This document shows positions 8,993 through 39,600 of a stretch of 64,000 bases of DNA, piece by piece. The DNA is from Vulcanimicrobiota bacterium (GTDB lineage Bacteria > Vulcanimicrobiota > Vulcanimicrobiia > Vulcanimicrobiales > Vulcanimicrobiaceae). Positions within the stretch are counted from its first letter, which is position 1. Every line of letters starts with the position of its first letter. The translations under genes were made by a program, and so were the position numbers. Location of the stretch: assembly GCA_027306785.1 (NCBI GenBank), contig DAHUZB010000013.1:124001-188000 (forward strand), read 5' to 3'. The notes beneath the pieces are model-generated. The model was not told the DNA's origin. It made no database searches and saw nothing but the letters and a program-made list of their open reading frames with translations.

Positions 8993-9757
8993 GTGCCCGT
9001 CGATCCGTTACGCGTCGCCCTCGAAGCCGCTCGTGAGGCCGGGAGCGTGCTGCGCGCCCACGCCGATCGGCCGCTCGAGATCGCGGAGAAGGGGCGCCGC
9101 GCCGATCTGGTAACCGCGGCCGATCGGGCGAGCGAGGCCGCGATCTTGGCGCGGCTGCGGGCCGCGTTCCCGCACGCGGCGGTGCTGGCCGAGGAGAGCG
9201 GGGCATCGTCGGGCACGAGCGACGAGCGCTGGATCGTCGATCCGCTCGACGGCACCACGAACTACGCGCACGGCTATCCGCTCTACTGCATTTCGATTGC
9301 GTTCGAGCGCGCGGGGGAACTCGTGGCCGGGGTCGTCTACGCCCCCGCGCTCGATGAGTGCTTTGCGGCCGAACGCGGCGCCGGTGCCTATCGCAACGAG
9401 GCGAAGATCGCGGTCTCGACGATCGCGCGGGTGGGCGACGCGATGCTCTGCACCGGATTCCATCCGGCCGATTACGAGCGCAACGCGCGCTTCTTCGCGC
9501 AGGCGTCGCACCGCGCGCAAGCTGTGCGTCGCGACGGCTCGGCGGCGCTCGATCTCGCCTATACGGCGTGCGGGCGCTTCGACGGCTTTTGGGAGTTCGA
9601 TCTTCACGCCTGGGACGTCGCGGCGGGCACGCTGCTCGTGCGCGAAGCGGGCGGCTGCGTTACGCGTGTGGACGGCGGCGCTGCGACGGTCGAGGGTCGC
9701 TCGATTCTCGCGAGCAACGGCCGCATCCACGACGAAGTGCGCGACGTATTGCGTTAG
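8993..9757 (+). CDS. Inositol-1-monophosphatase family phosphatase
   Basis: 254 residues, starting at GTG with a strong GAGGAGG five bases upstream. It carries the family metal-binding motifs: EES near residue 65, WIVDPLDGTTNYAHG at about 80-94, and the C-terminal WDVAAGTLLVREAGG. The family dephosphorylates inositol monophosphate and related sugar or nucleotide phosphates (SuhB, HisN, CysQ branches) with Mg2+; the exact substrate cannot be read from the sequence. Length is normal. Its stop shares TTAG with the stop of the convergent PelG-like gene. Confidence 0.88.
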   Translation: MPVDPLRVALEAAREAGSVLRAHADRPLEIAEKGRRADLVTAADRASEAAILARLRAAFPHAAVLAEESGASSGTSDERWIVDPLDGTTNYAHGYPLYCISIAFERAGELVAGVVYAPALDECFAAERGAGAYRNEAKIAVSTIARVGDAMLCTGFHPADYERNARFFAQASHRAQAVRRDGSAALDLAYTACGRFDGFWEFDLHAWDVAAGTLLVREAGGCVTRVDGGAATVEGRSILASNGRIHDEVRDVLR

Positions 9758-11400
9758 TACGCGGCGTAGTACGCGTAGGTGAAGCCGCGCATCGCGCGCG
9801 CGGTCGAGATCGTGCTCAGCGCGGCGAAGACGCATGCGGCGGCGATCAATCCCCACGCCATCTGCGCGGGAGCGGCGCCGCGCAGCACGGCGACGGCGCA
9901 CCACGCGAGGCTCGCGGCGAGTGCGCCGCACGCCGCGAGCAGCGCCGGGCCGGGGCGGCTGAGGAAGAAGAGGATCTGTACGTTGAGCAGCCCCACCATC
10001 ACCACCGCGTAGCCGATCGTCGTAAGGTGAAGCACGGCGAGCGAACTCGCGTCGCCGCCGCCGAGATGCGCCGAGAGGACGAGCCACGTTCCCCCGAACT
10101 CGCCGAGCGCGATCGCGGCGAGCGTCGCGAGCGCGATGGCACCGAGCCCGAGGAGATAGAAACGTAGCATCCCGCGTTGGAAGGGTTCGATCTCGGTCAC
10201 GCGCGCGTCGGCGCCCGCGAGGATGCGGCGCGGCAGCGCTTCGAGCACGACGTTGACCACGCCGGTGACCGGCAGGATCGCGAGCAATGCGATATCGGCG
10301 CCGAGTTCGTAGGCGGCGGCGTAGGCGTAGCCGCCGCCCGCCGCGGCGATGCCCGCGAAGACGCGGTCGCACAAAATCGCCGCGAAGTAGACCGCGCCGA
10401 AGGCGGCGTACGGGAGCGTCGCTTGTACGATCGAGCGCGTGCTCGGCGCGACGAGTTCACCGTGCGTGCGCCGCGCCGCGCTCGCGAGGCGGGCGTGCGT
10501 GACGGCGAGCACGAGCACGCCGATGCAGCCGATCTCGAGCGCCAGCGTCGCGGGCTCCCACGGCAGATCGACCTGCCGGTGGAAACCGAGCACGAAGGTG
10601 AGCCCGGTCGCGAGCGTGGCGGCGAACGCGACGCCGATGATCCAGGCGAAGCGCCGCAGCGTGTAGAGCGGCGCGAGCGCGAGTTGAAAGAGCGCGCTTC
10701 CCGCGCAGAACGATGCGGCGAGCCAGGCGTCGGGATCGCCGACCCACGCGCGTAGCGCGAGCCATAACAGTGCGGATGCGAGCGCCGTCGTCGCGATCGC
10801 AAGTGCGATAAAGCGTTCGAACGTCCACCGCATCAACGGTGCGTTCTCCTGGAGAACGTAAAACGTCAGACGGCGCGCGATCGCTTGCGCGTAGAACCCG
10901 CTCACCAATTGCGCGACGTAGACGCCGAGCGCGATCGCGGTCGCGAGATGGAGCGGCGTCGAGAGACTCGACCAGAGCGATGCCCCGAAGACCGCAAGGC
11001 CGATCACCGCGATGATCCAGGGCCCCGAGTAGAGCGATCCGATCGCGTAATCGCGACACGCGAGGCGAAACCAGGAGAGATCGCGTTCCCGAGCGCGTTC
11101 TTCGTCGCTCACGTACTTTTCGATCAGTACGTTCACGTCGCGCGCGAGCGCGAACAGATCGGGATACCAGAGCTCGCTCACGATCTCTTGCGAGAAGCCG
11201 AGCGACTCCAACAGAATCGCGATCTCGTCCACGCCTTTGGGGCGCCAGCCGCGCCCGAAGCGGTCGCTGCGGCACTGCGCGATGATGCTGCGCGCGGCGC
11301 GTTCGAGCTCGCGATCGCGGCGCTCGAACGGTTCGAAATCAGTGGGCGGTTCGAACGGCGAGGCCACGATAGAGCTCCCGGTAGTCGGCGAGAAAGGCAT
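9754..11400 (-). CDS. pelG: PelG-like exopolysaccharide membrane transporter
   Basis: 548 residues. About 110 soluble N-terminal residues are followed by roughly 12 hydrophobic segments, as in the MOP-superfamily transporter PelG, which works with the glycosyltransferase PelF at the inner membrane. Identification rests on topology and on lying directly behind pelF. The N-terminal extension is longer than I expect for PelG. The start is uncertain: this frame begins 62 bases inside pelF, and a GTG at 11367 would leave a 29-base overlap. It is the last gene of the five-gene minus-strand operon and shares a TTAG stop overlap with the convergent gene. Confidence 0.72.
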   Translation of the reverse strand: MPFSPTTGSSIVASPFEPPTDFEPFERRDRELERAARSIIAQCRSDRFGRGWRPKGVDEIAILLESLGFSQEIVSELWYPDLFALARDVNVLIEKYVSDEERARERDLSWFRLACRDYAIGSLYSGPWIIAVIGLAVFGASLWSSLSTPLHLATAIALGVYVAQLVSGFYAQAIARRLTFYVLQENAPLMRWTFERFIALAIATTALASALLWLALRAWVGDPDAWLAASFCAGSALFQLALAPLYTLRRFAWIIGVAFAATLATGLTFVLGFHRQVDLPWEPATLALEIGCIGVLVLAVTHARLASAARRTHGELVAPSTRSIVQATLPYAAFGAVYFAAILCDRVFAGIAAAGGGYAYAAAYELGADIALLAILPVTGVVNVVLEALPRRILAGADARVTEIEPFQRGMLRFYLLGLGAIALATLAAIALGEFGGTWLVLSAHLGGGDASSLAVLHLTTIGYAVVMVGLLNVQILFFLSRPGPALLAACGALAASLAWCAVAVLRGAAPAQMAWGLIAAACVFAALSTISTARAMRGFTYAYYAAY

Positions 11401-12784
11401 CCTGCGTGAAGAGATCGAGCGACCGCGCGCGCGCGCGCTTGCCCGTTTCGCGCGCGAGCGTCGCGTCGCGCAGGAAGGGTACGAGCGCCTCGGCGAGGCG
11501 TTCGGGACGCTTCGGCGGTACGACGCTGCCGCAGTCGCCGATCGCTTCGCGGATACCGCCCACGTCGGTGGCGACGACCGGCTTCGCGCACATCATCGCC
11601 TCGATGATCGTGTACGGAAAGCCCTCGGAGATGCTCGAGAGCGCCACCACGGTCGCGCGCGCGTACGCATCCGCCGGTTCCGTGGTCGGGCCCATCAGCA
11701 GCACGGTCTGCTCGAGGTCGAGATCGCGGATCAGCGCGAGGCACTCGGCTTCGTACTCTTTATCGAGTGCCGGACCCCACAGTTCGTAGCGCACGTTCGG
11801 GATCGCTTTACGCACCTCTCGGGCGCTCGCGATCATCGTGAGCACGTCTTTGAGCGGATCGATGCGCAGCACGGCCCCGACCGTCGGCACGCTCGGCGCG
11901 GTCTCGCGGTCGGAGAAACGCGACGCGTCGACGCCGTTGTAGATCACGCGCACGCGTTCTTCCGGCACGCCGTAGAAACGCTCCCACGTGGTGTTGTAGC
12001 GGCAGACGGGCGCGATCACGTCGGAGGCCGCGTACGTTGCGCGCGCGATCGCGGAGAAGAGATTTTTTTTGATCGAGCGATCGCTGAAGGGAAATCCGGC
12101 GCGCGCGAGCGAGAGCACGCGCTCGCGCAGATAGACGCCGTGCTCGGTGAGCACGAGCGGCGTGCCGCGAATCGCTTTGGCGGCGATGCCGGGCAGCGCG
12201 CAGAGGCCCGCCACGCTCGCGTGCATCACGTCGGCATCGGGCAGTTCGAGCGCGAGCGGCGAAAGGTAGCGATAGATCGTGCGCACGAGTTCGATCGCTT
12301 CGAGCGAGGTCATGAAACGCGCGTGCCAGGCCTGCGTGCGGAACAGCTCGAGCGCGACGTTCCAGCTCTCCTCGCGCCGCATCGTCCAGTCGTAGTCGTG
12401 CACGCGAAAGTAGCGATAGAGCTCGCCGATGCTCGCGATCAGCGTAGGCGGCGAGGCGTACTCCATGCCGCGCAGCACCTCGCCGAGAAACGTGGTGAAG
12501 AGCGGCACGAACGTCTCGCGCAGGGCGCGTACGTCGCGTCGTCCTTCGGAGCGCACGTCGGCTGCGTTGTACTCGGCCAGGCGCTCGTGTCCCCAGAGCG
12601 GCAGATCGAGCACGTACGCGCAGTTCGGCGGTAGCGTGTACTCGAGTCGTCCGGCCGGATTACCGACCAGCGCGAAGATGCCGAATTCGATGTCGGGAAG
12701 CCCCGCGATCAACTCGTGACACCACGTCGAGACGCCGCCGCGGACGTACGGATAGGTTCCCTCCGTGAGGAGGCAGACGCGCAT
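11339..12784 (-). CDS. pelF: PelF-like GT4 glycosyltransferase
   Basis: 481 residues. The N-terminus LLTEGTYPYVRGGVSTW is the hallmark of PelF, the cytoplasmic UDP-sugar-using transferase of the Pel polysaccharide system. A GT4 C-terminal half follows, with VIYNGVD, the donor-site E-x7-E region SEGFPYTIIEAM and ATDVGG. Length is near the usual 480-510. The ATG abuts the stop of the response-regulator gene, with no gap. In known Pel systems PelF pairs with PelG, and the next gene here fits that role. Confidence 0.88.
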   Translation of the reverse strand: MRVCLLTEGTYPYVRGGVSTWCHELIAGLPDIEFGIFALVGNPAGRLEYTLPPNCAYVLDLPLWGHERLAEYNAADVRSEGRRDVRALRETFVPLFTTFLGEVLRGMEYASPPTLIASIGELYRYFRVHDYDWTMRREESWNVALELFRTQAWHARFMTSLEAIELVRTIYRYLSPLALELPDADVMHASVAGLCALPGIAAKAIRGTPLVLTEHGVYLRERVLSLARAGFPFSDRSIKKNLFSAIARATYAASDVIAPVCRYNTTWERFYGVPEERVRVIYNGVDASRFSDRETAPSVPTVGAVLRIDPLKDVLTMIASAREVRKAIPNVRYELWGPALDKEYEAECLALIRDLDLEQTVLLMGPTTEPADAYARATVVALSSISEGFPYTIIEAMMCAKPVVATDVGGIREAIGDCGSVVPPKRPERLAEALVPFLRDATLARETGKRARARSLDLFTQDAFLADYRELYRGLAVRTAH

Positions 12785-14074
12785 CTAGGCGAGCGGCGAC
12801 GGCCGATCGTCGGCCATCACCGAATGCATCGACTCCGCGATCTCGACCGATTTGCGCGCGAGTTTGAGATTGCCCGCCGAGAGAAAGGCACGCGCGGCGT
12901 TGACGTACGCATCCTGCATCGCCTTGGCGTCGTTCGAGTTCTCGGCCCAGCAGAGATACATCTTGCCGGCCAGACGCAAGAGCTTATTCGAGAGATCGAG
13001 ATTGCCGAGCTGTCCCGCCACCACCGACGCGCTGCGGAATGCGATCGCCGCGCGCGGATACTGTTTGGCGCGATCGTTCATCTCGGCTTCCTGCACGTAG
13101 TAGTCAAGCGCATGACGCAGTTTGCCGACGTTCTGCGCGGCGACCGCCGCGCTCCAGTAATCGCCGTCGGCGGGCGTCGGCGGTTCGCCGCCGTCGTCGG
13201 CGAGCGACGCGCGCTCCGGCGGCGCGGCGGCGGGCGGTGCCGCGTGCGTGACGTCGTCGGGTTCGTCGTCGGCGAGCAGGCGACGCCAGCGCAGCTGTTG
13301 CTCGATGCGTGCGACGAGTTCGCGCGAATCGAAGGGCTTGGTGAGATAGTCCTGCGCGCCCGCTTCGAGAGCCGAGACCTTGTCCTCCGTGCGCGCCTGG
13401 CTCGTGAGCATGACGATCGGAATGTGACGCGTGCTCGGATCGCTCTTCAAGCGCTGTGCCGCGCTGCGCCCGTCGAGAATCGGCATCATCCAGTCGAGCA
13501 GCACGAGATCGGGGCGCACCTCGCGCGCGCGCTCGTAGGCTTCGAGTCCGTTGCCGACCGCCGTGACGTGAAAGCCGTTGCGCGAGAGCAGCGTTTCGAG
13601 CAGACGCCGAATCGAGGCATCGTCGTCGGCGAGCAGCACGTGTCCGCGCGCGGGTTCTTCGAGCGCGGTCGTGACCTCGACCGACGCGAGCGCAGCCGCA
13701 AGCTGCTTCGTCCAGTTCTCCACCGCGGCGGCGTCCCCGAACGAGATCGGGCCGTCGGCGTAGCACTCCACGTAACCGTAGGCGGCGCGTTCATCCGCGA
13801 GCGGCGCGCCGAGAAATCCGCCCGGCGGCAACTCCCCGTCGCAATCCTCACGTTGCGCGTGCGGCAGCAGCACGGCGTTGGCGCGCAGCATGCGCGCGAC
13901 GAACGGTGCGCGCAGTCCGCCGTAGACGACGTTGCTTTGCGCGGTCGCGCTTCCGGCGAGCGTCGGCTCGCCGTCGCTCGCGAGCCATACGCGTACGTGC
14001 GCGAATCCGAAGCGCGCGAGCGCCTCGCGCGCCGCGTCGCTCGCGAGATCCATGGCGGCTTTGATCTGCTGCAT
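12785..14074 (-). CDS. GAF-like / response-regulator receiver / TPR-like protein in the Pel-type operon
   Basis: 429 residues. Residues 1-140 look like a GAF domain. Residues about 145-262 are a complete receiver domain with acidic pocket D150-D152, phospho-acceptor D194 in LLDWMMP, T224 and K246 in the KPFD motif. A Pro/Ala-rich linker (about 270-305) leads to a helical TPR-like tail with YPRAAIAF and AARAFLSAGN elements. There is no signal peptide, membrane segment, GGDEF or EAL. Canonical Pel systems have PelD (membrane, GAF, degenerate GGDEF) and PelE (TPR) here, so this could be a soluble substitute that couples phosphorelay signalling to polymer synthesis. That role is inference. Confidence 0.75.
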   Translation of the reverse strand: MQQIKAAMDLASDAAREALARFGFAHVRVWLASDGEPTLAGSATAQSNVVYGGLRAPFVARMLRANAVLLPHAQREDCDGELPPGGFLGAPLADERAAYGYVECYADGPISFGDAAAVENWTKQLAAALASVEVTTALEEPARGHVLLADDDASIRRLLETLLSRNGFHVTAVGNGLEAYERAREVRPDLVLLDWMMPILDGRSAAQRLKSDPSTRHIPIVMLTSQARTEDKVSALEAGAQDYLTKPFDSRELVARIEQQLRWRRLLADDEPDDVTHAAPPAAAPPERASLADDGGEPPTPADGDYWSAAVAAQNVGKLRHALDYYVQEAEMNDRAKQYPRAAIAFRSASVVAGQLGNLDLSNKLLRLAGKMYLCWAENSNDAKAMQDAYVNAARAFLSAGNLKLARKSVEIAESMHSVMADDRPSPLA

Positions 14075-14827
14075 TCAGAGACTCACTCCGTACGCGACGG
14101 TCGGACGAAAATCCAGGTAGGTATGGGCCACGCCCGCGGGCAGCAGATTGCCGCGCAGGTAGGTCCCGGCCGCCTCTTCGAGCGCGAAGGTGGGTCCGCG
14201 CGTTCCGAACGGGTGAAAGCGCACGCCCGCCGTGAGCTCGGCGACGTTGTCGTAGTAGTACGGACGCGTGTCGAACGTCACGACCGGTCGTAGGTAGAAC
14301 TCGATCGGCCGCGCGCCGCCGTTCGAGGTGCCGATCTCGAGCTGGTTGTAGAAGACGGTGTCTTGGTAGCGGCTGTAGTACGTGCCGCTGCCGTAAAAAT
14401 TGCCGTACGCTCCGCGCGGACCGCCCCACTCGCGATAGAGCTGCGCGCCGCCGCGCACGTCGCCGCCCGAGGGCTCCGAGGCCACGCTGCCGATCGTTGT
14501 GGTCGCGCCCGCCTGCGCGAAGAGACGCAGTCCTTTCCCGTTCGTGTATTGCAGGCCGAGGGCACCGCCCGCGTAGTTGTCGCTGTAGATGCGCGGAATA
14601 TCGCCGCCCGTCGTTTTCGAGTCGTCGTTTGCGAAGACGTCGACGTAGGGGCGCAGCGCGGCGTTCGGCGAGCCGAGCGGTTTGTAGGCATCGACTGCGA
14701 AGACGATGTCGCCGTAGCGGCTCTCGTCCACGCCGTAGGAGTACAGATAGCCCGCCTGATCTGCCCGAGCTCCGAGCGGAAGTACCGTTGCGGCGATCGC
14801 GAGCGCGGCGGCGAATCGGCGGTTCAT
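14075..14827 (-). CDS. Small outer-membrane beta-barrel-like protein of the Pel-type operon
   Basis: 250 residues from the ATG at 14827, which overlaps the upstream stop as ATGA and gives a signal peptide (MNRRFAAALAIAATVLPLGARA). The mature part alternates aromatic and polar residues and contains patterns such as VAELTAGVRFHPFG and HTYLDFRPTVAYG, reminiscent of the C-terminal barrel of NfrA/BcsC-type polysaccharide porins. At this size it would be a small barrel of about 10-12 strands. It may be the outer-membrane exit in place of PelB, but it has no TPR scaffold. Family assignment is tentative. Confidence 0.6.
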   Translation of the reverse strand: MNRRFAAALAIAATVLPLGARADQAGYLYSYGVDESRYGDIVFAVDAYKPLGSPNAALRPYVDVFANDDSKTTGGDIPRIYSDNYAGGALGLQYTNGKGLRLFAQAGATTTIGSVASEPSGGDVRGGAQLYREWGGPRGAYGNFYGSGTYYSRYQDTVFYNQLEIGTSNGGARPIEFYLRPVVTFDTRPYYYDNVAELTAGVRFHPFGTRGPTFALEEAAGTYLRGNLLPAGVAHTYLDFRPTVAYGVSL

Positions 14828-16491
14828 GCGTGCGGTGCCTCCACGACGGTGTAGATGCGCAGCGAGCGGCGATTCACGGTCCACGAGCTGAGCAGCAGAC
14901 GCGACCCGTCGAACGCGAGATCGCGGGCGTCCGGATCGATCGCCGCGCGTGCGACGACGCGTCCGTCGGGCGTTGCGGCCACGAGTTTGGTATCGGCACG
15001 ATCGACGGTGTAGAGCAGCCCGTCGCGCGCGGCGAGCCCCGCGTAGCGATCCTGGCGCTTGGCGGGCGGCACGTCGGGATCGAGGATCGCAACCCGGCGA
15101 CCGGCAGCAACGTCGAAGAGCTCCCCGCTGTCGTCGATGCCGTAGAGCGTGCCGTTTAGGCGCGCGATGCCGACGAGCCAGTTCATCGCCGCGGGCAGTT
15201 GCTCGCGCGACGCGAGCGTCAGCGAGCCGTCCGCCGCGCGCGTGAAGCGATCGAGAAAGGGATGCGGATTCGGGTCGAAGCCCGCCTGCTGGACCGCCGT
15301 CACCTCGCCCGCGCCGCAGGTGAGTGCCGAGATCGCCGCGCGCTTGCTCGGGCGGTCGCGCTCGAGCGCGTCGAAGGTCTGCGAGCCCCGACGCTGCCCC
15401 TCGGTATCAAGCCGGAAGATGGTCGGACGATTGGTCGCCGCCACGTAGAGCGTGCCGTCGAGCGCGCAGAGCGGGCCGGGATCGGCGATCTGCCCGTCGG
15501 CGACTTCGGGATACTCGCTGCCGTGCTCGGCGCTCAGGTTCTCCAAAAAGCGATCGTGAAAGTCGGCGCCGACGCCGATGCGCGGGATCGCCCAACGCGA
15601 GTCGCCGCGCGCCGCCAGATGATCCTCGTCGGGCAGCGAGACGGCGAACGCCGCCGTGTACCCGGCGTTGCGCAGCGCTTCGCGGATGAGCGGGGTGAGG
15701 CCGAGCGCGTTCGAATGGCCCGCTTCGATCAGCGTCGACGGATTTGCGCCCGCGGGTAGCGGAATGTTCTGTCCGTACTCGCCCGACGGGAAGGCGAAGG
15801 CGGTGATCGTGATGCCGAGCAGCGGTTGGAAGGTCGTGCGCATACGGCGCAGATCGCGCTCGACCCGCGTCTCGAACTCGGCGGGCGTCTCGAAGCGGTG
15901 CTCTTTGGGGAGCCAGGCGAGATTGGCGTACCAGTACGGAGAGGTCGCACCGTCGGGAGCGATCCGAAGATCGCTGTGTCCGGCCCAACCGTGCGATTCG
16001 AGCGTCCAGATGCCCGAGCGCTGCATCGCGCGCAGGTCGGCGAGATCGAGACGCCCCGGGATCGCGGGATTGCCCGTCGCGTGCCCTTCGAAGAACATCG
16101 TGGCCGGATCGTGGTGCGCGCGCAGGATGGGCGTCGCGATCGTGAGCGCCGTGCGATAGCCGTCGTCGAAGGTGATCAGCACCGGCTTGGGCGGGAGTTC
16201 GTCGGTGCGGCCGTCCAGGTACGCGAGCGCCTGCGCGAGCGGAATGACGTGGTAGCCGTCACGCGCGAGCTCGCCGAGAAAGCCGTCGAACGCGGCGGGT
16301 GTGGTCCACGGCTTCTGGATGTGATCGACGCCGGCGGCGCTCTCGATCGGCGTGTTGCTCACCTGATGGAAGAGCAGGACCGCGATTTGTCGATGATGCT
16401 GCAACGCGAGCACGATGCGTCCGCCCGGGGATGCCGTCGCTCCGACGGTCGCGCAGAGCACGAGCGCGCAGGCCCACAATGATTTGAACAT
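14824..16491 (-). CDS. CE4 polysaccharide deacetylase fused to a beta-propeller
   Basis: 555 residues with a signal peptide at 1-20 (start 16491 chosen for it). Residues about 35-330 form a CE4/NodB deacetylase: VLLFHQVS, LITFDDGY (D109/D110) and ESHGWAGHSD (H167, H172) supply the metal and base residues, and this order resembles PgaB/IcaB and the PelA deacetylase domain. From about residue 340 the chain switches to repeated propeller-like blades (GTLYVAAT, GTLYGIDD, GLLYTVDR) in place of the glycosidase domain of PelA or PgaB. It is the first gene of the five-gene operon. It probably deacetylates the exported polymer in the periplasm. Confidence 0.8.
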   Translation of the reverse strand: MFKSLWACALVLCATVGATASPGGRIVLALQHHRQIAVLLFHQVSNTPIESAAGVDHIQKPWTTPAAFDGFLGELARDGYHVIPLAQALAYLDGRTDELPPKPVLITFDDGYRTALTIATPILRAHHDPATMFFEGHATGNPAIPGRLDLADLRAMQRSGIWTLESHGWAGHSDLRIAPDGATSPYWYANLAWLPKEHRFETPAEFETRVERDLRRMRTTFQPLLGITITAFAFPSGEYGQNIPLPAGANPSTLIEAGHSNALGLTPLIREALRNAGYTAAFAVSLPDEDHLAARGDSRWAIPRIGVGADFHDRFLENLSAEHGSEYPEVADGQIADPGPLCALDGTLYVAATNRPTIFRLDTEGQRRGSQTFDALERDRPSKRAAISALTCGAGEVTAVQQAGFDPNPHPFLDRFTRAADGSLTLASREQLPAAMNWLVGIARLNGTLYGIDDSGELFDVAAGRRVAILDPDVPPAKRQDRYAGLAARDGLLYTVDRADTKLVAATPDGRVVARAAIDPDARDLAFDGSRLLLSSWTVNRRSLRIYTVVEAPHA

Positions 16492-16596
16492 GCGCTTTCG
16501 AAAACGTATGATGCTCGGCGTTGGATGCTGCGTTCGCCCGCGCCCTACTCGTCCCATAAGCAGAAGTTAGCCGTCGCCGTACAGAAGCACTTTCGT

Positions 16597-25081: not shown

Positions 25082-25912
25082 ATGTTCGACGAGTTGATCG
25101 CGCGCGCGGTCGCGGCCGGTCGGCTGCGGGTGGCCGTGGTGCGCGCCGACGATGCGCTCTCGCGCGAAGGTGCGCTTGAGGCACAGCGTCGGGGGCTGAT
25201 CGAGCCGCTCTTCGTCGAGACGCCCGCCGAGGCGGCGGCGCTGGCCGCCGCGGGCGAAGCGCGCGCGATCATGAAGGGCCACGTGCACAGCGACGCGCTA
25301 CTGCACGCGATCCTCGCCGAAGCGGGGCTGCAGACGGGGCGCCGTTTGAGTCACGTCGTCGCGGCGGAACTGCCGCATCGGGCGGCGCCGCTGCTCGTGA
25401 GCGACGCGGCGGTGACTATCGCGCCGGATCTCGATTCGAAACGCGAGATCGTGCAGAACGCGATCGACGTCGCGCGCGCGCTCGGCATCGCGCAGCCGCG
25501 CGTGGCGATCCTCGCCGCGGTCGAGACGGTCGCCGCACGCATGCCCTCGACGATCGACGCCGCAGCGCTTGCGGAGATGGCGCGGCGCGGGCAGATCCGC
25601 GGCGGCGTCGTCGACGGGCCGCTCGCGCTCGATGACGCGCTCTCCGCGGAGGCGGCGCATGCGAAAGGGATCGACTCACCCGTCGCGGGCTGCGCCGACG
25701 TCCTGATCGCCCCCGATCTCGATGCGGGCAACATCATCTACAAGATGCTCGAACGCGTGGTGCACGCGCGCTGCGGCGGCGTCGTGGTCGGCGCGCGGGT
25801 TCCGGTGATTCTTACCAGCCGAGCCGATGCGGTCGACGCGCGGGTGATCTCGTGCGCGCTCGCGACGCTCGCATACGCCGCGGGCGGCGTCTACGCTTCG
25901 GCGAGCCAGTAG
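25082..25912 (+). CDS. Phosphate acetyl/butyryltransferase-family protein
   Basis: 276 residues. Family features are MKGHVHSD near residue 63, the LSHVV region, VAILAAVETVAARMPSTIDA, GGVVDGPLALDDA, and the C-terminal DVLIAPDLDAGNIIYKMLE, all typical of Pta/Ptb. It converts acyl-CoA plus phosphate to acyl phosphate plus CoA. No acyl kinase gene follows; the next gene is convergent and overlaps this one by 22 bases. With the SDR and crotonase genes it may form a C4 or branched-chain acyl-CoA module. Confidence 0.85.
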   Translation: MFDELIARAVAAGRLRVAVVRADDALSREGALEAQRRGLIEPLFVETPAEAAALAAAGEARAIMKGHVHSDALLHAILAEAGLQTGRRLSHVVAAELPHRAAPLLVSDAAVTIAPDLDSKREIVQNAIDVARALGIAQPRVAILAAVETVAARMPSTIDAAALAEMARRGQIRGGVVDGPLALDDALSAEAAHAKGIDSPVAGCADVLIAPDLDAGNIIYKMLERVVHARCGGVVVGARVPVILTSRADAVDARVISCALATLAYAAGGVYASASQ

Positions 25913-27957
25913 CCGCGCAGCGTATCGATGATCGCGAGGCGCGTCTGTTTGTAGACGGGATCGCGCGAGGCGTTGCGCGCATGCGCGTGCGCGCGGTGGA
26001 GTAGATCGTCGAGCGGCGTGCCGTGGAGCGCACGTGCGGCGACGAATCGTTCGACCAAGCTCGTGTGCCGCGCGAATTCGTCGGCGAGTTTCGGCCAGCG
26101 GGCGAGCTCACCCAGCTGTAGATCCCAAAGCAGGTAGCCCGCCATCGCGCCGAGTGCGGTGCGCGGCGCTTGATGATCCACGGGAAAGCGGTAGCCGCGG
26201 TGCCACGCGGCGAGTTCCGAGACGGGCATCGGTTGGGCGATCCCGTACCCTTGCCCGCAATCGGCACCGAGCATCGCCGCGGCCTCGATCAAGCCGTGAT
26301 GCTCGAGCCCTTCGACCGTTACCGGAATCGCGAGCGCGCGCGCCAAGCGACTGAGATAGAGTATGAATTCGAGCGCGCGTTGCGGATTGCGCATCGCACC
26401 GCGCACGAGCGACTGGTCGATCTTGACGCCGTCGAACGGGTATTGATCGAGGCGTACGAGCGAGCTGTGCGCGGAGCCGAGATCGTCCTGTTCGACCTCG
26501 ATGCCGAGTGCACGCAACTGCACGATGCACTCATGGTGCTTCGAGACGTCGTTCCCGTCTTCGGGCGTCTCCAGGACTTCGAGCGAGATCCGCTGCGGGG
26601 CGATCCCGTGGTCGGCGAGCGCTCGCAGCAGCGTGTCGCGATATCGCGTATCTCCGAGCGCGGCGGCGGGAAGATTGATCGCCGCGCGCACGCTGAGGCC
26701 CTCGCCGTCGAGCCCGCGCAGATCCGCGCTGACACGGCGGACGACCAGGTCGAACAACTCGAAGAGATCGGCCTCGCCGAGCGCCGGGAGAAAGCGCCCC
26801 GCCGAAATCAACGCGTCATCGTCGTCGAGCAGGCGCGCCAGGGCTTCGATCTTGACGAGAGCACCCGTTTTGAGGTCGATGATCGGTTGATAGAGGACGG
26901 TCAGTCGCTGCGCTTCGAGAAGTCGGCGATAGACGCGTCGCTCGGAGATGGGAATGACCGGTGCGTGCATCCGCAACGCCACCGCACGGCTGAGCGCGTG
27001 ATAGAGGTGACGGAGAAATTTGGCGATACGGTTGGTGGCGAAAAAGCCGGGGTAGGCGCTGTAGAGCGTGATCAACGCGATGCTGCGACCCGATTCGTCG
27101 CAGAGCGGCAGCGCCGCGCTCGCGCGAAAACCGAGCTCGCCGCCCACGCTGCGCCACGGTATGCGATCGGGCTCGTGCATCCACGCATTCGAGATGACGA
27201 TCTGCCCGCTGCGCCAGGCGCGGCCGCCCGGTCCGGCGCCCGCCGGAATCGACGGATCGATGCTGATCTTGGGAATGCGGCCGTGCTCCATCGCATCGTA
27301 GTAGCGGTCGGCACTGCCGAACGTCGCTTCGAACTGCAGTGCTCCCTCGGCGTCGGCGCGGCCGAAGAAGCCCGCGACGAGCCCGTCCAGTACCTCGAGT
27401 GCGGAGAAGACGCCGCGTACGAGATCGGAGAGATTCGCGGCCGTCTGAATCTGTTCATCGACGGCGGCGAGAACGCTCGAGACGCCGCGCCCGATCTCGT
27501 CGTAACTTACGAGTTGCTCGCGCAGATCGCGCAGGATGCGCAAGTCGACGATGTGCTGCACGAGCTCGCGACGTTCGGAGAGCGGAGCAACGTCGCGCAA
27601 CAGGGCATGGACTTCGTGCTGGTAGCGCGCGAAGGATTCGATCAGCCAGGTCGGCGCCACGCCGACGAGCGCATGGATGCGCCCCGCGGCGCGTGCCGCG
27701 GACGCGTGCTCTTCGGCGGAGAGATCGGGCGCGAGCAGGTTGGCGAGGTAGGCGGCTTGGGTGCTTTTCAGGCGCGCGAATTCGTCGGGACCGAGTCGCG
27801 CGATGACGTCGGCGAGCGGGCTCCGCCGCTGGATCGAAGCGTAAAAGTCTTCGGAAAAATCGGCGGAGAGCGCCGCGACGGGCTCGGTGATGCCGCGCAG
27901 CGCATCGGCCGCGGCGGAGCCGTAGATGGTGGTGAAATCCGCGTCTTGTATCTCCAC
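25891..27957 (-). CDS. Globin-coupled sensor with GAF and EAL domains (c-di-GMP phosphodiesterase)
   Basis: 688 residues from a GTG start. Residues about 20-165 are a globin-coupled-sensor domain, with H95 (GRIHALVGV) in the position of the proximal heme ligand of DosC-type sensors. Residues about 175-330 are GAF. Residues about 345-590 are EAL with the catalytic set present: E371 (KIEALARL), N429, a glutamate in LEVLE, D491/D492, K512 (VKID), E549 (VEGLE) and Q569. It probably hydrolyses c-di-GMP under control of O2 or another heme ligand. It lies 6 bases downstream of a paralogue of the same architecture. Heme binding itself is inferred. Confidence 0.85.
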   Translation of the reverse strand: MEIQDADFTTIYGSAAADALRGITEPVAALSADFSEDFYASIQRRSPLADVIARLGPDEFARLKSTQAAYLANLLAPDLSAEEHASAARAAGRIHALVGVAPTWLIESFARYQHEVHALLRDVAPLSERRELVQHIVDLRILRDLREQLVSYDEIGRGVSSVLAAVDEQIQTAANLSDLVRGVFSALEVLDGLVAGFFGRADAEGALQFEATFGSADRYYDAMEHGRIPKISIDPSIPAGAGPGGRAWRSGQIVISNAWMHEPDRIPWRSVGGELGFRASAALPLCDESGRSIALITLYSAYPGFFATNRIAKFLRHLYHALSRAVALRMHAPVIPISERRVYRRLLEAQRLTVLYQPIIDLKTGALVKIEALARLLDDDDALISAGRFLPALGEADLFELFDLVVRRVSADLRGLDGEGLSVRAAINLPAAALGDTRYRDTLLRALADHGIAPQRISLEVLETPEDGNDVSKHHECIVQLRALGIEVEQDDLGSAHSSLVRLDQYPFDGVKIDQSLVRGAMRNPQRALEFILYLSRLARALAIPVTVEGLEHHGLIEAAAMLGADCGQGYGIAQPMPVSELAAWHRGYRFPVDHQAPRTALGAMAGYLLWDLQLGELARWPKLADEFARHTSLVERFVAARALHGTPLDDLLHRAHAHARNASRDPVYKQTRLAIIDTLRGYWLAEA

Positions 27958-27963
27958 CGATCG

Positions 27964-30003
27964 CTACCGTCCGTCGTGCACGTGCGCGCGGAGCGCGCGG
28001 ACGATGTCGGAGCGCGTCGAACGGTAGCGCGCATCGTGGGCTCCGTGCAGGGCGGCGATGCGATTGCGCTCGATGAGTCGTCCGAGCGTCGCGTCGTCGC
28101 GCGCGTGGCGACCGGCGTAGCGCTCGAGCAGCGAGTCCGCTCCGACGAACTGCTCGGCGAGGTTCGGCCAGCGCGCGAGTTCGCCCAGCTGAAGATCCCA
28201 GAGCAAGAACCCCGCGAGCGCGCCGAGTGCGCTGCGCGGCGACTGCACGTCCACCTCGTAGCGGTACGACCCGAACCACGCGGGCAGCGCGGAGAACGGC
28301 ATCGGTTGAGCGATGCCGTACCCTTGTCCGCGATCGGCACCGAGGATCGCCGCCGCTTCGACGAGGGCGGCGTCTTCCAAGCCTTCGACCGTGACCAATG
28401 CGCCGAGCGCGTGGACCAGGCGGGTGAGGTAGAGCACGAACTCGAGCGAACGCAACGGCTTCTCGCGCGCACCGCGCACCAGCGTCTGATCGATCTTCAC
28501 CCCGTCGAAGGGATAGCTGTCGAGGCGCACGAGCGAGCTGTGCGCGGAGCCCAGATCGTCTTGTACGACGGCGATACCGGCGGCCCGCAGTTCGGCGGCG
28601 ATCGACGTGCGCGCCGCGGTGTCGATCGTGTCGAGCGGCGTTTCGAGCACCTCGAGCACCAGGCGTCGCGGCTCGAGTTCGTGCTCTCGCAGCGCGCGGA
28701 AGATGGTATCGCGGTAGCGGGACTCACCCAGTGCATGCGCGGGAATATTCACGGAGACGCTCGTGACGACGCCGTCGCGTTCGAGCGCGCGGCAATCGCG
28801 GCAGGCGCGTGCGAGCACGCTGCGGGTGAGCTCGAAGAGATCCTCCTCGCCGAGCGCCGGAATGAACGCGTCCGCCGGGATCAGTTCGTCGTTCTCATCG
28901 AGCAGACGTGCGAGCGCCTCGATTTTCGGCACCGATCCGTCGCGCAGATCGACGAGGGGCTGGTAGAGCACCGCCACCCGCTGCTCGCGCAGCAGCGAAC
29001 GATAGGCCGCGCGTATGCGAAGCGGAATCACGGGCGCGTGAATGCGCAGCGCGGATTCACGCCCGAGTACTTGCTGCAGATAGCCGAGAAACTTTCCGAT
29101 GCGATTGGTCGCGAAGAATCCCGGATAGCCGCTGTAAAGCATGATCAGCGCCGCCGTTCGCCCGGAGGAGTCGACGAGCGGAATGGCCGCCGCGGCGCGG
29201 TAGCCGAGCTCTTCGGCCGCGCTGCGCCACGGCAAACCTTCGCCGACGTTCATCCAGGCGTTCGCCGTTACGATCTCGCCGCTGCGCCACGCGCGTCCGC
29301 CGGGCCCTTGGCCCGCGGAGAGTTCGGGATCGAGATTGATCTTCGGAATGCGTCCCTCTTCCATCGCGTGATGGTAGCGATCGCCGCTCCCCAGGCTCGC
29401 TTCGACCTGCAGTTCTCCGCGATCGTCCGCCCGCAGGAAGAGTCCGGCCGCGATGCCGTCGAGTCCGTCGAGTACGGCGAAGGTGCCGCGAATCAGATCG
29501 TCGAGACCGGCCGTATTCGCGAGGACGGCGTCGATCTGCGTGATCGCGATCGTGATGCTGCGGCTGATCTCGCCGAGGGTCGCCGTCTGCGCGCTCAGAT
29601 CGAGGAGGATGCGCAGATCGAGAATGCGCGAGAGCGGCGCCGCGACCTCGGGCGGATAGGTTCGTTCGATCGCGTGGAAGCGCTGCTGCAACTGCACGTA
29701 GGTTTCGGTGAGCGTCTGCGGCCCGACCCCGACCAGAGCGTGCGTGCGCCCGGCGTCGTGGGCGGCGCTGCGATGTTCCGCTTCGCTGATCTCCGGGGAG
29801 AAGACGCGGGCGAGGTAGGCCGCTTCGCGCGCGATGAGTTCGGTACGCTGGTCGGGCGTGAGCCGCGCGACGATCTCGCCCAGCGGCGTATCGGCGGGCA
29901 CCGTGCGATACGTGCCGTCCACGAACTCGTGCAGCATTGCGGGAAGATCGGCGCTCCACACGCGCAGTAGTTCCGCGGCTTCTCCGCCGTAGACGCTCGT
30001 CAT
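27964..30003 (-). CDS. Globin-coupled sensor with GAF and EAL domains, tandem paralogue
   Basis: 679 residues from the ATG at 30003; the open frame upstream of it is arginine-rich and implausible. It has the same order as its neighbour: globin sensor (about 10-160, proximal H88 in GRTHALVGV), GAF (about 165-320), EAL (about 335-580, with PKIEALARL, QDDLGSAHSS, VKIDQ and VEGLE present) and a helical tail containing the shared LLWDLQLGELARWP. The long stretches in common show a tandem duplication followed by divergence. It is probably transcribed first, with the paralogue behind it. It diverges from the WcbI-type gene across a 107-base gap. Confidence 0.85.
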   Translation of the reverse strand: MTSVYGGEAAELLRVWSADLPAMLHEFVDGTYRTVPADTPLGEIVARLTPDQRTELIAREAAYLARVFSPEISEAEHRSAAHDAGRTHALVGVGPQTLTETYVQLQQRFHAIERTYPPEVAAPLSRILDLRILLDLSAQTATLGEISRSITIAITQIDAVLANTAGLDDLIRGTFAVLDGLDGIAAGLFLRADDRGELQVEASLGSGDRYHHAMEEGRIPKINLDPELSAGQGPGGRAWRSGEIVTANAWMNVGEGLPWRSAAEELGYRAAAAIPLVDSSGRTAALIMLYSGYPGFFATNRIGKFLGYLQQVLGRESALRIHAPVIPLRIRAAYRSLLREQRVAVLYQPLVDLRDGSVPKIEALARLLDENDELIPADAFIPALGEEDLFELTRSVLARACRDCRALERDGVVTSVSVNIPAHALGESRYRDTIFRALREHELEPRRLVLEVLETPLDTIDTAARTSIAAELRAAGIAVVQDDLGSAHSSLVRLDSYPFDGVKIDQTLVRGAREKPLRSLEFVLYLTRLVHALGALVTVEGLEDAALVEAAAILGADRGQGYGIAQPMPFSALPAWFGSYRYEVDVQSPRSALGALAGFLLWDLQLGELARWPNLAEQFVGADSLLERYAGRHARDDATLGRLIERNRIAALHGAHDARYRSTRSDIVRALRAHVHDGR

Positions 30004-30110
30004 CCGGCGAACACCGCGTCCGGGAGCTCCATGCCTTGGATGCTTGGCGAGAGCCGCTCCCGGTTCCCGGGTGCGAGGGTCCGGCGGCGAGCGCCGACAA
30101 TGGAGAGGGC

Positions 30111-31550
30111 ATGATCGAAGAGCCGCATCGTTCGGCGATCGCCGATGCGCTGATCGAACGCGGCTTCGACGCCTTGCGAAGCGGCGATCCCGCCGCCGCG
30201 TGCGCCGCATTCCTCGACGCACGTTCGCATGCGCCCGAGCATCCCGCCGCGTGGGCCGGCCTCGGCGAATCCCTCATCGCGCTCGAACGGTACGACCAAG
30301 CGCGAGCGTTGCTCGCCGACGCGCGAACGCGCTTTCCCGAGAATCCGTGGCCGTCGCTGCTGCTTGCGCGGATCGCGCTGCGTAGGGGCGAACGCGCCGA
30401 AGCGGGGGATCTGCTGCAGGCGGCGCTCGCACGCGGAGCGGGCGAGGCCGGGCTCCGGTACGCCGTCTATCGCGCATTCGAAGAAGCGCGCGATGCGCGA
30501 GCCGGCGGGGTTCTCGACGAGGCGGTGCGCTGCTTTCCCGACGACGAAGCGTTGCGGCGTGCGGCGGGGCAGCGCGCGCAGGAGCGCGCGGCGTGGCCGG
30601 AGGCGGAGCGCCACTGGCTCGCGGTGCTGCGGCGGCGGCCGAACGCGATCGATGCGCTGCATGCGCTTGCGACCGCGCGGAGGCTGCATCCGCCCGCGGA
30701 GCGCACCACCGTTGCCCTCTACGGCAACTGTCAGGCCGAATATCTCGTGCTCATGCTCGAGCACGTTCCCGCGCTGAGCGAACGATTCGCGTTCGCGCCG
30801 GTTACCAATCACGGCGCGCGCATTCCGGCCGATCGGCGCACGCTGCCCGCGTCGCTGTCACACGCCGCGATCTACTGGGAGCAATTCGATCAGCATCCGC
30901 GCGTCGATCTGCGCGAGCGCGTGCGCGCCCGGTTGCCCTCGGACTGTCGCGTCGTACGCTATCCGTCGCTCGGGATGACCGCGCTGTGGCCGTTTGCCGC
31001 ACCCGATGCGCGCGAAGGCGCGAACGGGAGCGAGAGCTTTCCCTTTGCCGACCGCGTCGCGCTCGAACTCGCGGGCGAAGGCGTGCCGCGGGACGTCGCC
31101 TTCGATTCCTACCTGGAGCGTTCGCGTGCGAGTATGCCCGCGCTCGACCGCCTGCTCGAACGGGATCGACGCACGATCGAGCGACGCGATGCCGCCTGCG
31201 ACGTACGGATCGGCGACGCCGTCTTCGCGCATCTGCGCACGCGGTACGATTTTTGGGCCTGGACGTATGCATCGGGCGCGCTCGTGGCCGAGCTCGTGTT
31301 GCGTCTGGTGCAGGCGACGCCGGAGATGCACGACATACTCGAGCCCGATCTCGACCTTCAGCTTGCCGCCATCGCGGAGATGGCGCCGGGACAATCGTCG
31401 CTGCAGGTTCCCATCCATCCCGACGTCATCGAGCACTTCGGGCTCGCGTACGTGACGGCGGACTCGCGCTATCGCTGGGGGGCGGAGTCGATGGGCTTTC
31501 GCGCGTACATCGAGGCGATCGTCGCGCGGGAGTTGGAGTTACCCGCTTAA
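30111..31550 (+). CDS. TPR protein with a C-terminal WcbI-like polysaccharide-biosynthesis domain
   Basis: 479 residues from an ATG preceded by GGAGAGG. Residues about 1-200 are TPR-like helical repeats (DPAAACAAFLDARSHAPEHPAAWAGLGESL). From residue about 203 the motif VALYGNCQAEYL opens a WcbI domain, a family tied to capsule polysaccharide modification and proposed to be an acetyltransferase. It converges on, and shares a TTAA stop overlap with, the ACP gene of the FkbH module. The two may supply and use the same acyl group; that link is inference. Confidence 0.8.
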   Translation: MIEEPHRSAIADALIERGFDALRSGDPAAACAAFLDARSHAPEHPAAWAGLGESLIALERYDQARALLADARTRFPENPWPSLLLARIALRRGERAEAGDLLQAALARGAGEAGLRYAVYRAFEEARDARAGGVLDEAVRCFPDDEALRRAAGQRAQERAAWPEAERHWLAVLRRRPNAIDALHALATARRLHPPAERTTVALYGNCQAEYLVLMLEHVPALSERFAFAPVTNHGARIPADRRTLPASLSHAAIYWEQFDQHPRVDLRERVRARLPSDCRVVRYPSLGMTALWPFAAPDAREGANGSESFPFADRVALELAGEGVPRDVAFDSYLERSRASMPALDRLLERDRRTIERRDAACDVRIGDAVFAHLRTRYDFWAWTYASGALVAELVLRLVQATPEMHDILEPDLDLQLAAIAEMAPGQSSLQVPIHPDVIEHFGLAYVTADSRYRWGAESMGFRAYIEAIVARELELPA

Positions 31551-36682: not shown

Positions 36683-39600
36683 TGCAGTTCATCCGTTCGT
36701 TCGTCCGCGGCGCCACGGCGCTCGCGTTTCTTGCGGTTGCGAGCTTCGGCATCGCGAGCGCCAGCACGATTACGGTCAACAAGACCTTCAGTCCGACGAC
36801 CGTCAATCTCGGAGCAGCGTCGACGGTGACGGTGACCCTCGAGAACAACTCGACCGCCTCCACCGCGACGGTGACGAACTTCGCCGACGATATCGCGACG
36901 ATGTCGGGGTACGCCACGCTCAACACCGGTTACACGCCGACCACCACCTGCGTCGGCGGTAATCCGTCGATCTCCGGCACGAGCATCGTGATGACGGCGG
37001 GCACGATCCCCAAGGGAACGACCTCCGTTCCCGGCTCGTGCACGATCACGTTCCAAGTGTATGGAGCGATCGTCGGCAACGGCTTCAATACGATCTCCGC
37101 GGCGAACGTGAGCACCAGCCTCGGATCGCCGTCGGCCGACGTGACGCAGACGCTGACCATCAACTCGGTCAACGTGACGATCACGAACGGTCCCGCGCGC
37201 ACCGGACTCACCGGGCTCGCGAATTCGGTGACGCCGACGATTACGATCAATAATCCGGCCGCGACCGTTCCGCTCACGAACGTGGCGTTCTCGGTCGAGA
37301 CCAACGGCGCGAACCTTCCTTACACGATCAACAACATCTCGAATAGCTGCGGCGCGACGACCGCGACCACGTTCCCGCTCGTCGTCAACTCATCGAGCGT
37401 GCAAACGTTTCACTTTACCGGGGGAACGATCCCGGCGGCCGGTACGTGCGTCGTCACCTTCGACGTGTCGGAAGGCTCGGTCGGAACCGTCAACATGACG
37501 CTTCCGGCGACGACCGTGACCGACGCGCAGAACGTCTCGAACACCTCCGCCGGATCGACGCAGGCGCGATTCGTCGCCGGGCCGACCGTGACGAAGAGCT
37601 TCAATCCGACGACGCTCGTTCCGGGCTCGAATGCGACCCTCACGATTCGCGTGCAGAACACGCTCTCGACGACCGAACTCACCAACGCCGCGATCACCGA
37701 TAACTTTCCGATCTCGCAGATGACGCTCGTCTCCACCCCGTCGTCCAGCGGGTGTAACTCGAGCAGTACCCCGACGTTCGGCGGTGTGGGAACCTCGACG
37801 CTGACGATGAGCGGCGCGTCGATCGCGGCGGGTGCGACCTGTACGATCACCGCGACGATCAATATCGCCGCCGGCGCCTCGAACGGCAGCATTACCAACA
37901 GCATTCCGGCCGGCAACTTCACGAGCACGCAGACCTCGACTTCGAGCGGCACCGCGAACGGTTCGGGAACGGTGAGCAGCACCGGCACGGTCAGCACGGC
38001 GAAATCCTTCAGCACCGGCTCCGCGGCCGCCAATACGCCCGTACTCGTGACGCTGAAGTTCGTTGCGAACGGCACGGGCGTCACCTTCACCGGCGGAACG
38101 TTCACCGATGCGTTACCGCAATCGCCCGAGGCGATGCAGGTCTATAACGACGGTGGAGCACACGCGCCGAGCGTCTCGGGCTGCGGCTCGGCGACGGCGG
38201 GAAATATCACGGCGACCAACGGGGCGACGTCGGTCAGCGGCAGCGGCCTTGCGATTCCCACGGCCAACGGCACCTGTACCGTCACCTTTTATGTCGTCTT
38301 TCCGAATCCGACGCAAAACACGACCGGCACGAAGGACACGAATTCTCTCGTCGGCACGAATGTCTCGTTCACCAGTTCGGCGACGAGCGGCACGGTGCAC
38401 GCGAGCAACACGTCGTCGGCGAGTCTGACGGAACTTCCGTCGCTCACGCTGACGAACTACGTCACCTCGGAAAAAAATCTCGTCAATCAGCCGACCACCG
38501 TGCAGGCGGCGATCAGCGATCCGGGCGGTGCGAGCGATAGCAACGTGACCGTCGTGCTGAAAACGACGACGGGCAAGGTCTCGATCGTTCCGAACTCGCT
38601 CTCGTTCGGAGCGGGATGCCCCGCCGGCACCCCGAGCTACGCGCTGGAATCGGTGACGATCACGTTCGCGTCGATCAGCGCGAGCTGCACCATGACCTAT
38701 CAGGTGGTCGACGAAGGCGGTGCGACGGGAACGTTCGTTCCGGGCAACCCGACCTACGCCGGAACGTTGACGGGCGGCGTGCCGGTCACGTTCACCGCGC
38801 AGAACAACGTGACGTTCTCGCAGACGAGCATCGTCGTGACGAAATCGTTTACGCCCAATCAGATTCAGGCGGGCGCGAACTCGACGGCGGACATCTCGCT
38901 CAACGTCAATCCGGTTACCGGATTCCCGGTTACGCTCGCCTCGGGCGTTTCGTTCTCCGACTCGCTGCCCGCCAATGTCACGTTCTCGGCCTCGCCGAAC
39001 GTGCAGTTCGGCAGCGGCTGTAACGCCGACGGATCGAACGCGCAAAGCTATTCGATCGCGGGCACGACGATCACGTTTTCGGGCCTCGCGTTCGAGAATA
39101 ACGGGTCTCCGGTGCCGTGCGTCGTTTCATTCTCGGTCACGTCATCGGTCGTCGGCGCGCCGCTCAACGTGATTCCGGTCGGCGCGGTCACCTCGACGTC
39201 GGGCGCGACCAATTCGGCCAAGGCGCAGGCCTCGCTGACCGTCGCATCGGGCGTCGGCATCGCGAAATCGTTCCAGAACGCATCGATGGCGATCGGCGCG
39301 ACGAACGAGATGCGCCTGCTCTTCACCAACAGCGCCAGCACCACGCCGCTGAGCGGCGGCACCGCAACCGATGCGATGCCGAGCTCGCTGCAATTGCAGA
39401 GCACGACGCCCGGCCCGACGCAGCCCGGAGATCCGGCGGCGTGTACCGCGACGATCGCCGGGACCGTTGGGAGCTCGAACGTAAGCATTACCGGGCTCGC
39501 GCTCCCGGCGCTCGTCGGCTCGACGCCCGGACAGTGCGTGCTCTACGTGCCGGTCACCAGCTCCGCGAGCGCCGCTCCCGGTCTCGTGACCAACACGATT

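Follow-up and report, generated by a model that had tools for sequence, protein, structure and literature searches.

Introduction

The usual account of synthase-dependent polysaccharides in biofilms is that c-di-GMP switches their production. In canonical Pel, PelD switches the system by binding c-di-GMP, and PelE is proposed to dock in the synthase. Canonical PelB consists of TPRs plus a 16-strand barrel (PMC12141448). Streptococci, which have a class IV PelD, make Pel without c-di-GMP binding to PelD (PMC7112168, PMC12345266), and how Pel is controlled without c-di-GMP was left open in that system (PMC12345266). Pel control free of c-di-GMP is therefore not unprecedented (class IV PelD, PMC12345266); in the literature that we searched we found neither a receiver in such a role nor any paper that describes a receiver protein within a pel operon or Pel in the Eremiobacterota.

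Here we analyse a 64-kb stretch of DNA (64,000 nucleotides, hereafter the window) from the genome of an uncultured bacterium (3.14 Mb, 96% complete), which we place in the Eremiobacterota by its named relatives. It carries a five-gene operon that we read, as the best account, as a Pel-like system without PelD; its PelF is of a second lineage, and its regulator would be a receiver/TPR protein dedicated to the synthase. The operon shares with pelABCDEFG of Pseudomonas aeruginosa PelF, a probable PelG-type translocase in the same order, and a periplasmic deacetylase. In contrast to that system, it lacks PelD, a detectable PelE and PelB, has no GH114 gene, encodes a PelG with an extra N-terminal domain, and contains a 12-strand barrel and a protein with GAF-like, receiver (REC) and TPR-like parts, which we call GRT. 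Streptococcal class IV PelD differs from GRT in keeping its membrane and GAF parts and in having no receiver, whereas GRT is soluble and combines a receiver with TPRs.

Results and Discussion

Operon layout and identity of the export genes

The operon occupies positions 16491 to 9754 of the minus strand, with its genes tightly packed in the order deacetylase, barrel, GRT, PelF and PelG (Table 1). In the sequence, the start of the barrel gene overlaps the deacetylase stop by 4 nt, the GRT gene and pelF each follow the preceding gene with no gap, and pelG overlaps pelF by 29 nt. All five genes are confirmed as real, with their order conserved among relatives. The one exception is genome G052, with the order GRT-PelF-PelG-deacetylase; this is read from a contig that begins within GRT and whose link to L042/L105 is inferred. 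We rejected a tandem arrangement of GRT in that genome, since the two copies are contig ends and probably the same locus. Elsewhere in the window, a minus-strand ORF of 1500 aa (39142-43644) has no Pfam match.

Table 1. Genes of the operon in window coordinates. The starts given for the deacetylase, barrel and PelG genes (16491, 14827 and 11367) are probable and were chosen from signal peptides and alignments.
Feature	Position	Strand	Evidence and remarks
CE4 deacetylase	14824..16491	(-)	PF01522; secreted, N-terminal signal peptide; ORF opens at 16557
Small outer-membrane beta-barrel	14075..14827	(-)	AF2 model, Foldseek; signal peptide
GRT	12785..14074	(-)	PF00072, AF2 model, alignment of 16 homologues
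PelF-type GT4 glycosyltransferase (polymerase)	11339..12784	(-)	NF038011, DUF3492
Divergent PelG-type membrane translocase	9754..11367	(-)	hhalign; GTG start, ORF opens at 11400

The deacetylase matches PF01522 (CE4) at E=5e-14 and the PgaB model TIGR03938 at E=8.6e-24, the latter under that model's cut-off. The TFDDG and SHxxxH motifs of CE4 deacetylases are invariant across 10 relatives, and we read the C-terminal domain as a beta-propeller. The deacetylase function of PelA in canonical Pel is represented by a CE4 domain, with the esterase only and no hydrolase domain, as in the deacetylase-only PelA of Gram-positive pelDEADAFG. The sole barrel protein in the operon is some 250 aa long and is predicted to have 12 strands (AlphaFold2 model, pLDDT 66); for it, Foldseek returned bacterial barrels, the best fit being porins of the KdgM/NanC type (8xua, 2wjq). 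This protein has no periplasmic TPR, and a PelB, with its TPR plus 16-strand barrel, was not found in the operon.

The preliminary description had called PelF and PelG recognisable. For PelF this is borne out by a score of 204 bits against NF038011 (NCBIfam PelF), for which the cut-off is 100, by a match to DUF3492 (E=8.5e-51) and by the E-x7-E pair E387 and E395, which is invariant among relatives. The PelG candidate is divergent. It does not match the Pfam PelG family PF16933, and a PDB sequence search with it gave no match; in a profile-profile comparison of the membrane part (hhalign), it aligned with annotated PelG at 91% probability over 402 columns. As 40 reversed or column-shuffled controls reached at most 1.3% and a MATE profile at most 1.1%, the link to PelG stands, and an unrelated MATE/Wzx transporter was rejected. 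At its N terminus the candidate has an additional cytoplasmic domain, some 100 aa long, that is absent from canonical PelG. Residues of this extension are partly common to the membrane proteins encoded after pelF in Deinococcus, Thermus and Streptomyces; hhalign against the PelF-linked membrane proteins of Deinococcota and Actinomycetota gave 96.5%, the N-terminal motif included.

A receiver protein before pelF

GRT comprises a GAF-like part (residues 1-140), a receiver (146-262) and TPR-like helical repeats (304-424). At the level of sequence the receiver is certain (PF00072, E=4.8e-29), with D150, D151, D194, T224 and K246 all present. In an AlphaFold2 model (pLDDT 81), an N-terminal alpha-beta domain with GAF-like order precedes the receiver, from which a disordered linker leads to three helical hairpins; the six helices of these hairpins are modelled with high confidence, as expected of a TPR. 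Pfam gave weak TPR matches in a few homologues and weak GAF matches in 2 of 16, with none for GAF in the window protein itself, where the order of strands and helices in the model is GAF-like; 'GAF' is therefore a fold-level guess. Among the 50 best Foldseek matches shown for the GRT model there were receiver-containing structures only, which did not help to assign the GAF part. The earlier proposal of a phosphorylatable-looking receiver with GAF-like and TPR parts, encoded before pelF, is thus upheld by the intact DD/D/T/K site and by the model. GRT has no apparent transmembrane segment and, by Pfam and in the model, no DNA-binding domain; it is therefore no regulator of transcription in the classical sense.

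Conservation in GRT is highest in REC and TPR, with mean pairwise identities of 0.67 and 0.65 in an alignment of 16 homologues, against 0.43 for the variable GAF part. The equal conservation of TPR and REC would fit a constitutive scaffold or assembly factor, in which the REC is an interaction fold, a pseudo-receiver in part of the family, and phosphorylation is dispensable. The phospho-Asp itself is replaced in three members, by Val in the operon homologue L036, by Ala in a relative from a GT2 operon and by Asn in the paralogue at locus L103. Phosphorylation therefore cannot be indispensable throughout the GRT family. No kinase was found nearby in the 64-kb window. Nevertheless, the acidic pair, D194, T224 and K246 are kept in most pel-linked members (the L042/L044 locus has Ala in place of T224), which suggests selection for phosphorylation, and we consider a purely constitutive scaffold unlikely. 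The most likely role for GRT would be that of a synthase-dedicated cytoplasmic regulator or scaffold that does the job of PelD and PelE together and is phospho-gated in most members. L036 itself (JANYGA010000158.1) comes from a MAG labelled Rhodospirillales that matches Eremiobacterota genome G009, and is probably mislabelled.

Search for PelD and PelE

A search of the genome with the Pfam PelD model (PF16963) found nothing; control genomes also gave no match, so this result is uninformative alone. A PelD profile built from five annotated PelD-type genes recovers all three of the source records searched and gave no match at E<=1 in the whole genome. Given the canonical pel loci of other Eremiobacterota families, an HMM from the same five sequences detects PelD in 9 of 11. 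The absence of PelD is thus probably real, within a genome that is 96% complete, and the view that PelD is missing, with no pelD elsewhere, held up. Weak PelD matches in some sister genomes were dismissed, as they lay mostly in the C-terminal part of the profile and near background (best 24 bits). The companion claim, that PelE is missing, stands as far as the operon, where none was seen, and the fetched loci, in which a PelE HMM found 0 of 3 GRT-type loci of relatives compared with 10 of 11 canonical in-phylum loci. A PelD or PelE hidden inside GRT was likewise rejected: profile comparison gave at most 0.6%, and thus no detectable homology of GRT to either protein.

Distribution of GRT

PelF of the GRT-linked type occurs in 16 of 149 sampled Eremiobacterota genomes (15 from the same family, one from another family of the class), and the GRT TPR is present in all 16. 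Wherever a locus fetched in the named-genome scan extends over both genes, GRT is encoded immediately before pelF. The operon comparison with related genomes thus came out in favour of the preliminary description, and this strict synteny rules against GRT as a response regulator picked up by chance. A scan of a genome collection placed relatives of the GRT TPR in 16 loci, all in records titled Eremiobacterota or in MAGs without a taxon name, except for the one labelled Rhodospirillales; it used two peptide patterns, which distant relatives elsewhere could escape.

GRT is part of a larger family in the Eremiobacterota, with weaker relatives in genomes without this PelF. In G080 and G082, such a relative directly follows the gene of an MshEN-domain GT2 synthase; the operon there also encodes a GH130 protein, a barrel-like protein and an NTP-transferase. 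This arrangement resembles ours in having a GAF-like/REC/TPR protein next to the synthase gene and an outer-membrane barrel-like gene upstream; it differs in the GT2/MshEN synthase, in the GH130 and NTP-transferase genes and in the receiver Asp, which is Ala. The coordinates of this GRT relative with its Asp-to-Ala change are L101:5374-6516 and L102:803-1948. Further relatives adjoin a groEL-like gene or a BLH-phosphatase-like gene, and such non-exopolysaccharide neighbourhoods would be expected if GRT were a general signalling adaptor that merely shares the transcript and acts elsewhere. We regard this as improbable, given the strict pelF linkage over two families of the class and the relative that is linked to a second exopolysaccharide synthase. 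A broader proposal, that GRT proteins are an undescribed Eremiobacterota-specific family of synthase-dedicated receiver/TPR subunits which gate unrelated exopolysaccharide synthases, both PelF-type GT4 and MshEN-GT2, post-translationally, with the PelD and PelE roles merged in a single soluble protein and a phosphorelay as input, seems to us rather doubtful.

A separate PelF lineage

In our PelF tree, GRT-linked PelF and the PelF of Deinococcus, Thermus, Streptomyces and Kocuria share one side of a branch with 100/100 support, and PelD-bearing PelF, including that of other families of the same phylum, fills the opposite side. Uniting GRT-linked PelF with the canonical PelD-bearing PelF of Eremiobacterota was rejected (p-AU 7.7e-74). 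The tree is unrooted, includes in-phylum canonical PelF and omits three long-branched outgroup GT4s; in a first tree with those outgroups, which was less resolved, the PelF branch in question fell between the groups. GRT-linked PelF is a separate lineage in common with the Deinococcota/Actinomycetota clusters. In these plasmid clusters, the membrane partner is homologous to ours and has the N-terminal motif in common with it. No GRT-type gene was seen beside their pelF, unlike in our operon, and they have an Agd3-like deacetylase instead of the CE4-propeller protein. PelD is not annotated in their fetched regions; our profile found none in the two records searched (L024, L025), and absence in the other three rests on the annotation of those regions.

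These results bear on the idea that GRT stands 'in place of' PelD and PelE in a historical sense. The absence of PelD, the position of GRT before pelF and the presence of canonical PelD-E-F-G in other families of the phylum would all suit an ancestral PelD/PelE pair that was replaced by GRT, with control passing from c-di-GMP to phosphorelay. We find this quite improbable, because the PelF lineage lies apart from the canonical one within the phylum, groups with Deinococcota/Actinomycetota, and is PelD-less in the two sampled clusters; PelD and PelE were not simply swapped out. As the tree is unrooted, it fits a gain of PelD on one side as well as a loss on the other, and so allows an ancestral loss. 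The historical swap is therefore not sustained. Nor is a move of control from c-di-GMP to phosphorelay, since the window contains no detected HATPase domain, the phospho-Asp is lost in three members and 24 GGDEF matches persist in the genome.

Nature of the polymer

Within the same PelF branch, the Deinococcota/Actinomycetota clusters carry Agd3-like (CBM87/CE) deacetylases together with genes for GH114 endo-alpha-1,4-polygalactosaminidase (L024, L026 and L027; weakly L025 and L030). The assignment of PelF and PelG to the Pel pathway thus fares in two ways: PelF falls in a different branch from canonical PelF, yet this branch is linked to alpha-1,4-galactosamine enzymes. Of the 16 genomes that have this PelF, 12 carry GH114, as against 31 of the other 131 (Fisher p 8e-5, kinship ignored); GH114 is frequent, too, among relatives that do not have this PelF, and its support for a Pel-like product is therefore weak. 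The source genome has a GH114 gene, unlinked to the operon, which we rejected as part of the exopolysaccharide locus, its neighbour being a photolyase-related gene.

The great divergence of PelG, which misses PF16933, and the lack of resemblance of the outer-membrane protein to PelB could mean that PelF and PelG together produce a glycan with no relation to Pel. We think this fairly improbable in light of the GH114 and Agd3-like deacetylases in the nearest outside clusters, and of GH114 in the source genome and in 12 of 16 PelF genomes, though there it is unlinked and is found in genomes without this PelF as well. The product would be a Pel-like, partly deacetylated and probably amino-sugar polysaccharide.

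A possible mechanism and its signalling context

What follows, from the nature of the polymer and its route out of the cell to the docking, phosphorylation and switching by GRT, is inferred. PelF would polymerise the chain in the cytoplasm and PelG would carry it across the inner membrane, after which the CE4 enzyme may deacetylate it in the periplasm; the 12-strand barrel is a candidate outer-membrane exit or companion porin. The TPR domain of GRT might dock on PelF, on the extra N-terminal domain of PelG, or on both, in the manner of PelE, and a kinase encoded elsewhere would phosphorylate the GRT receiver and so switch docking, in parallel to c-di-GMP acting on PelD. The whole explanation, a five-gene Pel-like export operon with GRT docked on the synthase and switched through its receiver, is our preferred one, at a little under an even chance. 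If it is true, a phosphorelay acts directly on polymerisation through a receiver protein dedicated to a Pel-type synthase, and a second lineage of PelF/PelG, one that does without PelD in several phyla, would be defined. GRT also offers a concrete candidate mechanism for Pel control free of c-di-GMP.

The look-out for a cognate kinase found no HATPase domain in the 64-kb window; 28 were counted across the genome. Adjacent EAL genes (protoglobin-GAF-EAL and GAF-EAL) lie on the minus strand at 25891-30222, about 10 kb from the upstream end of the operon; together with the GGDEF matches, these two genes indicate that c-di-GMP signalling is present in this genome. Lastly, in another genome of the phylum (G064, L128:14711-15211), the gene immediately before pelD of a canonical pelDEFG set encodes a lone receiver, which independently hints that receivers can come together with the control of Pel.
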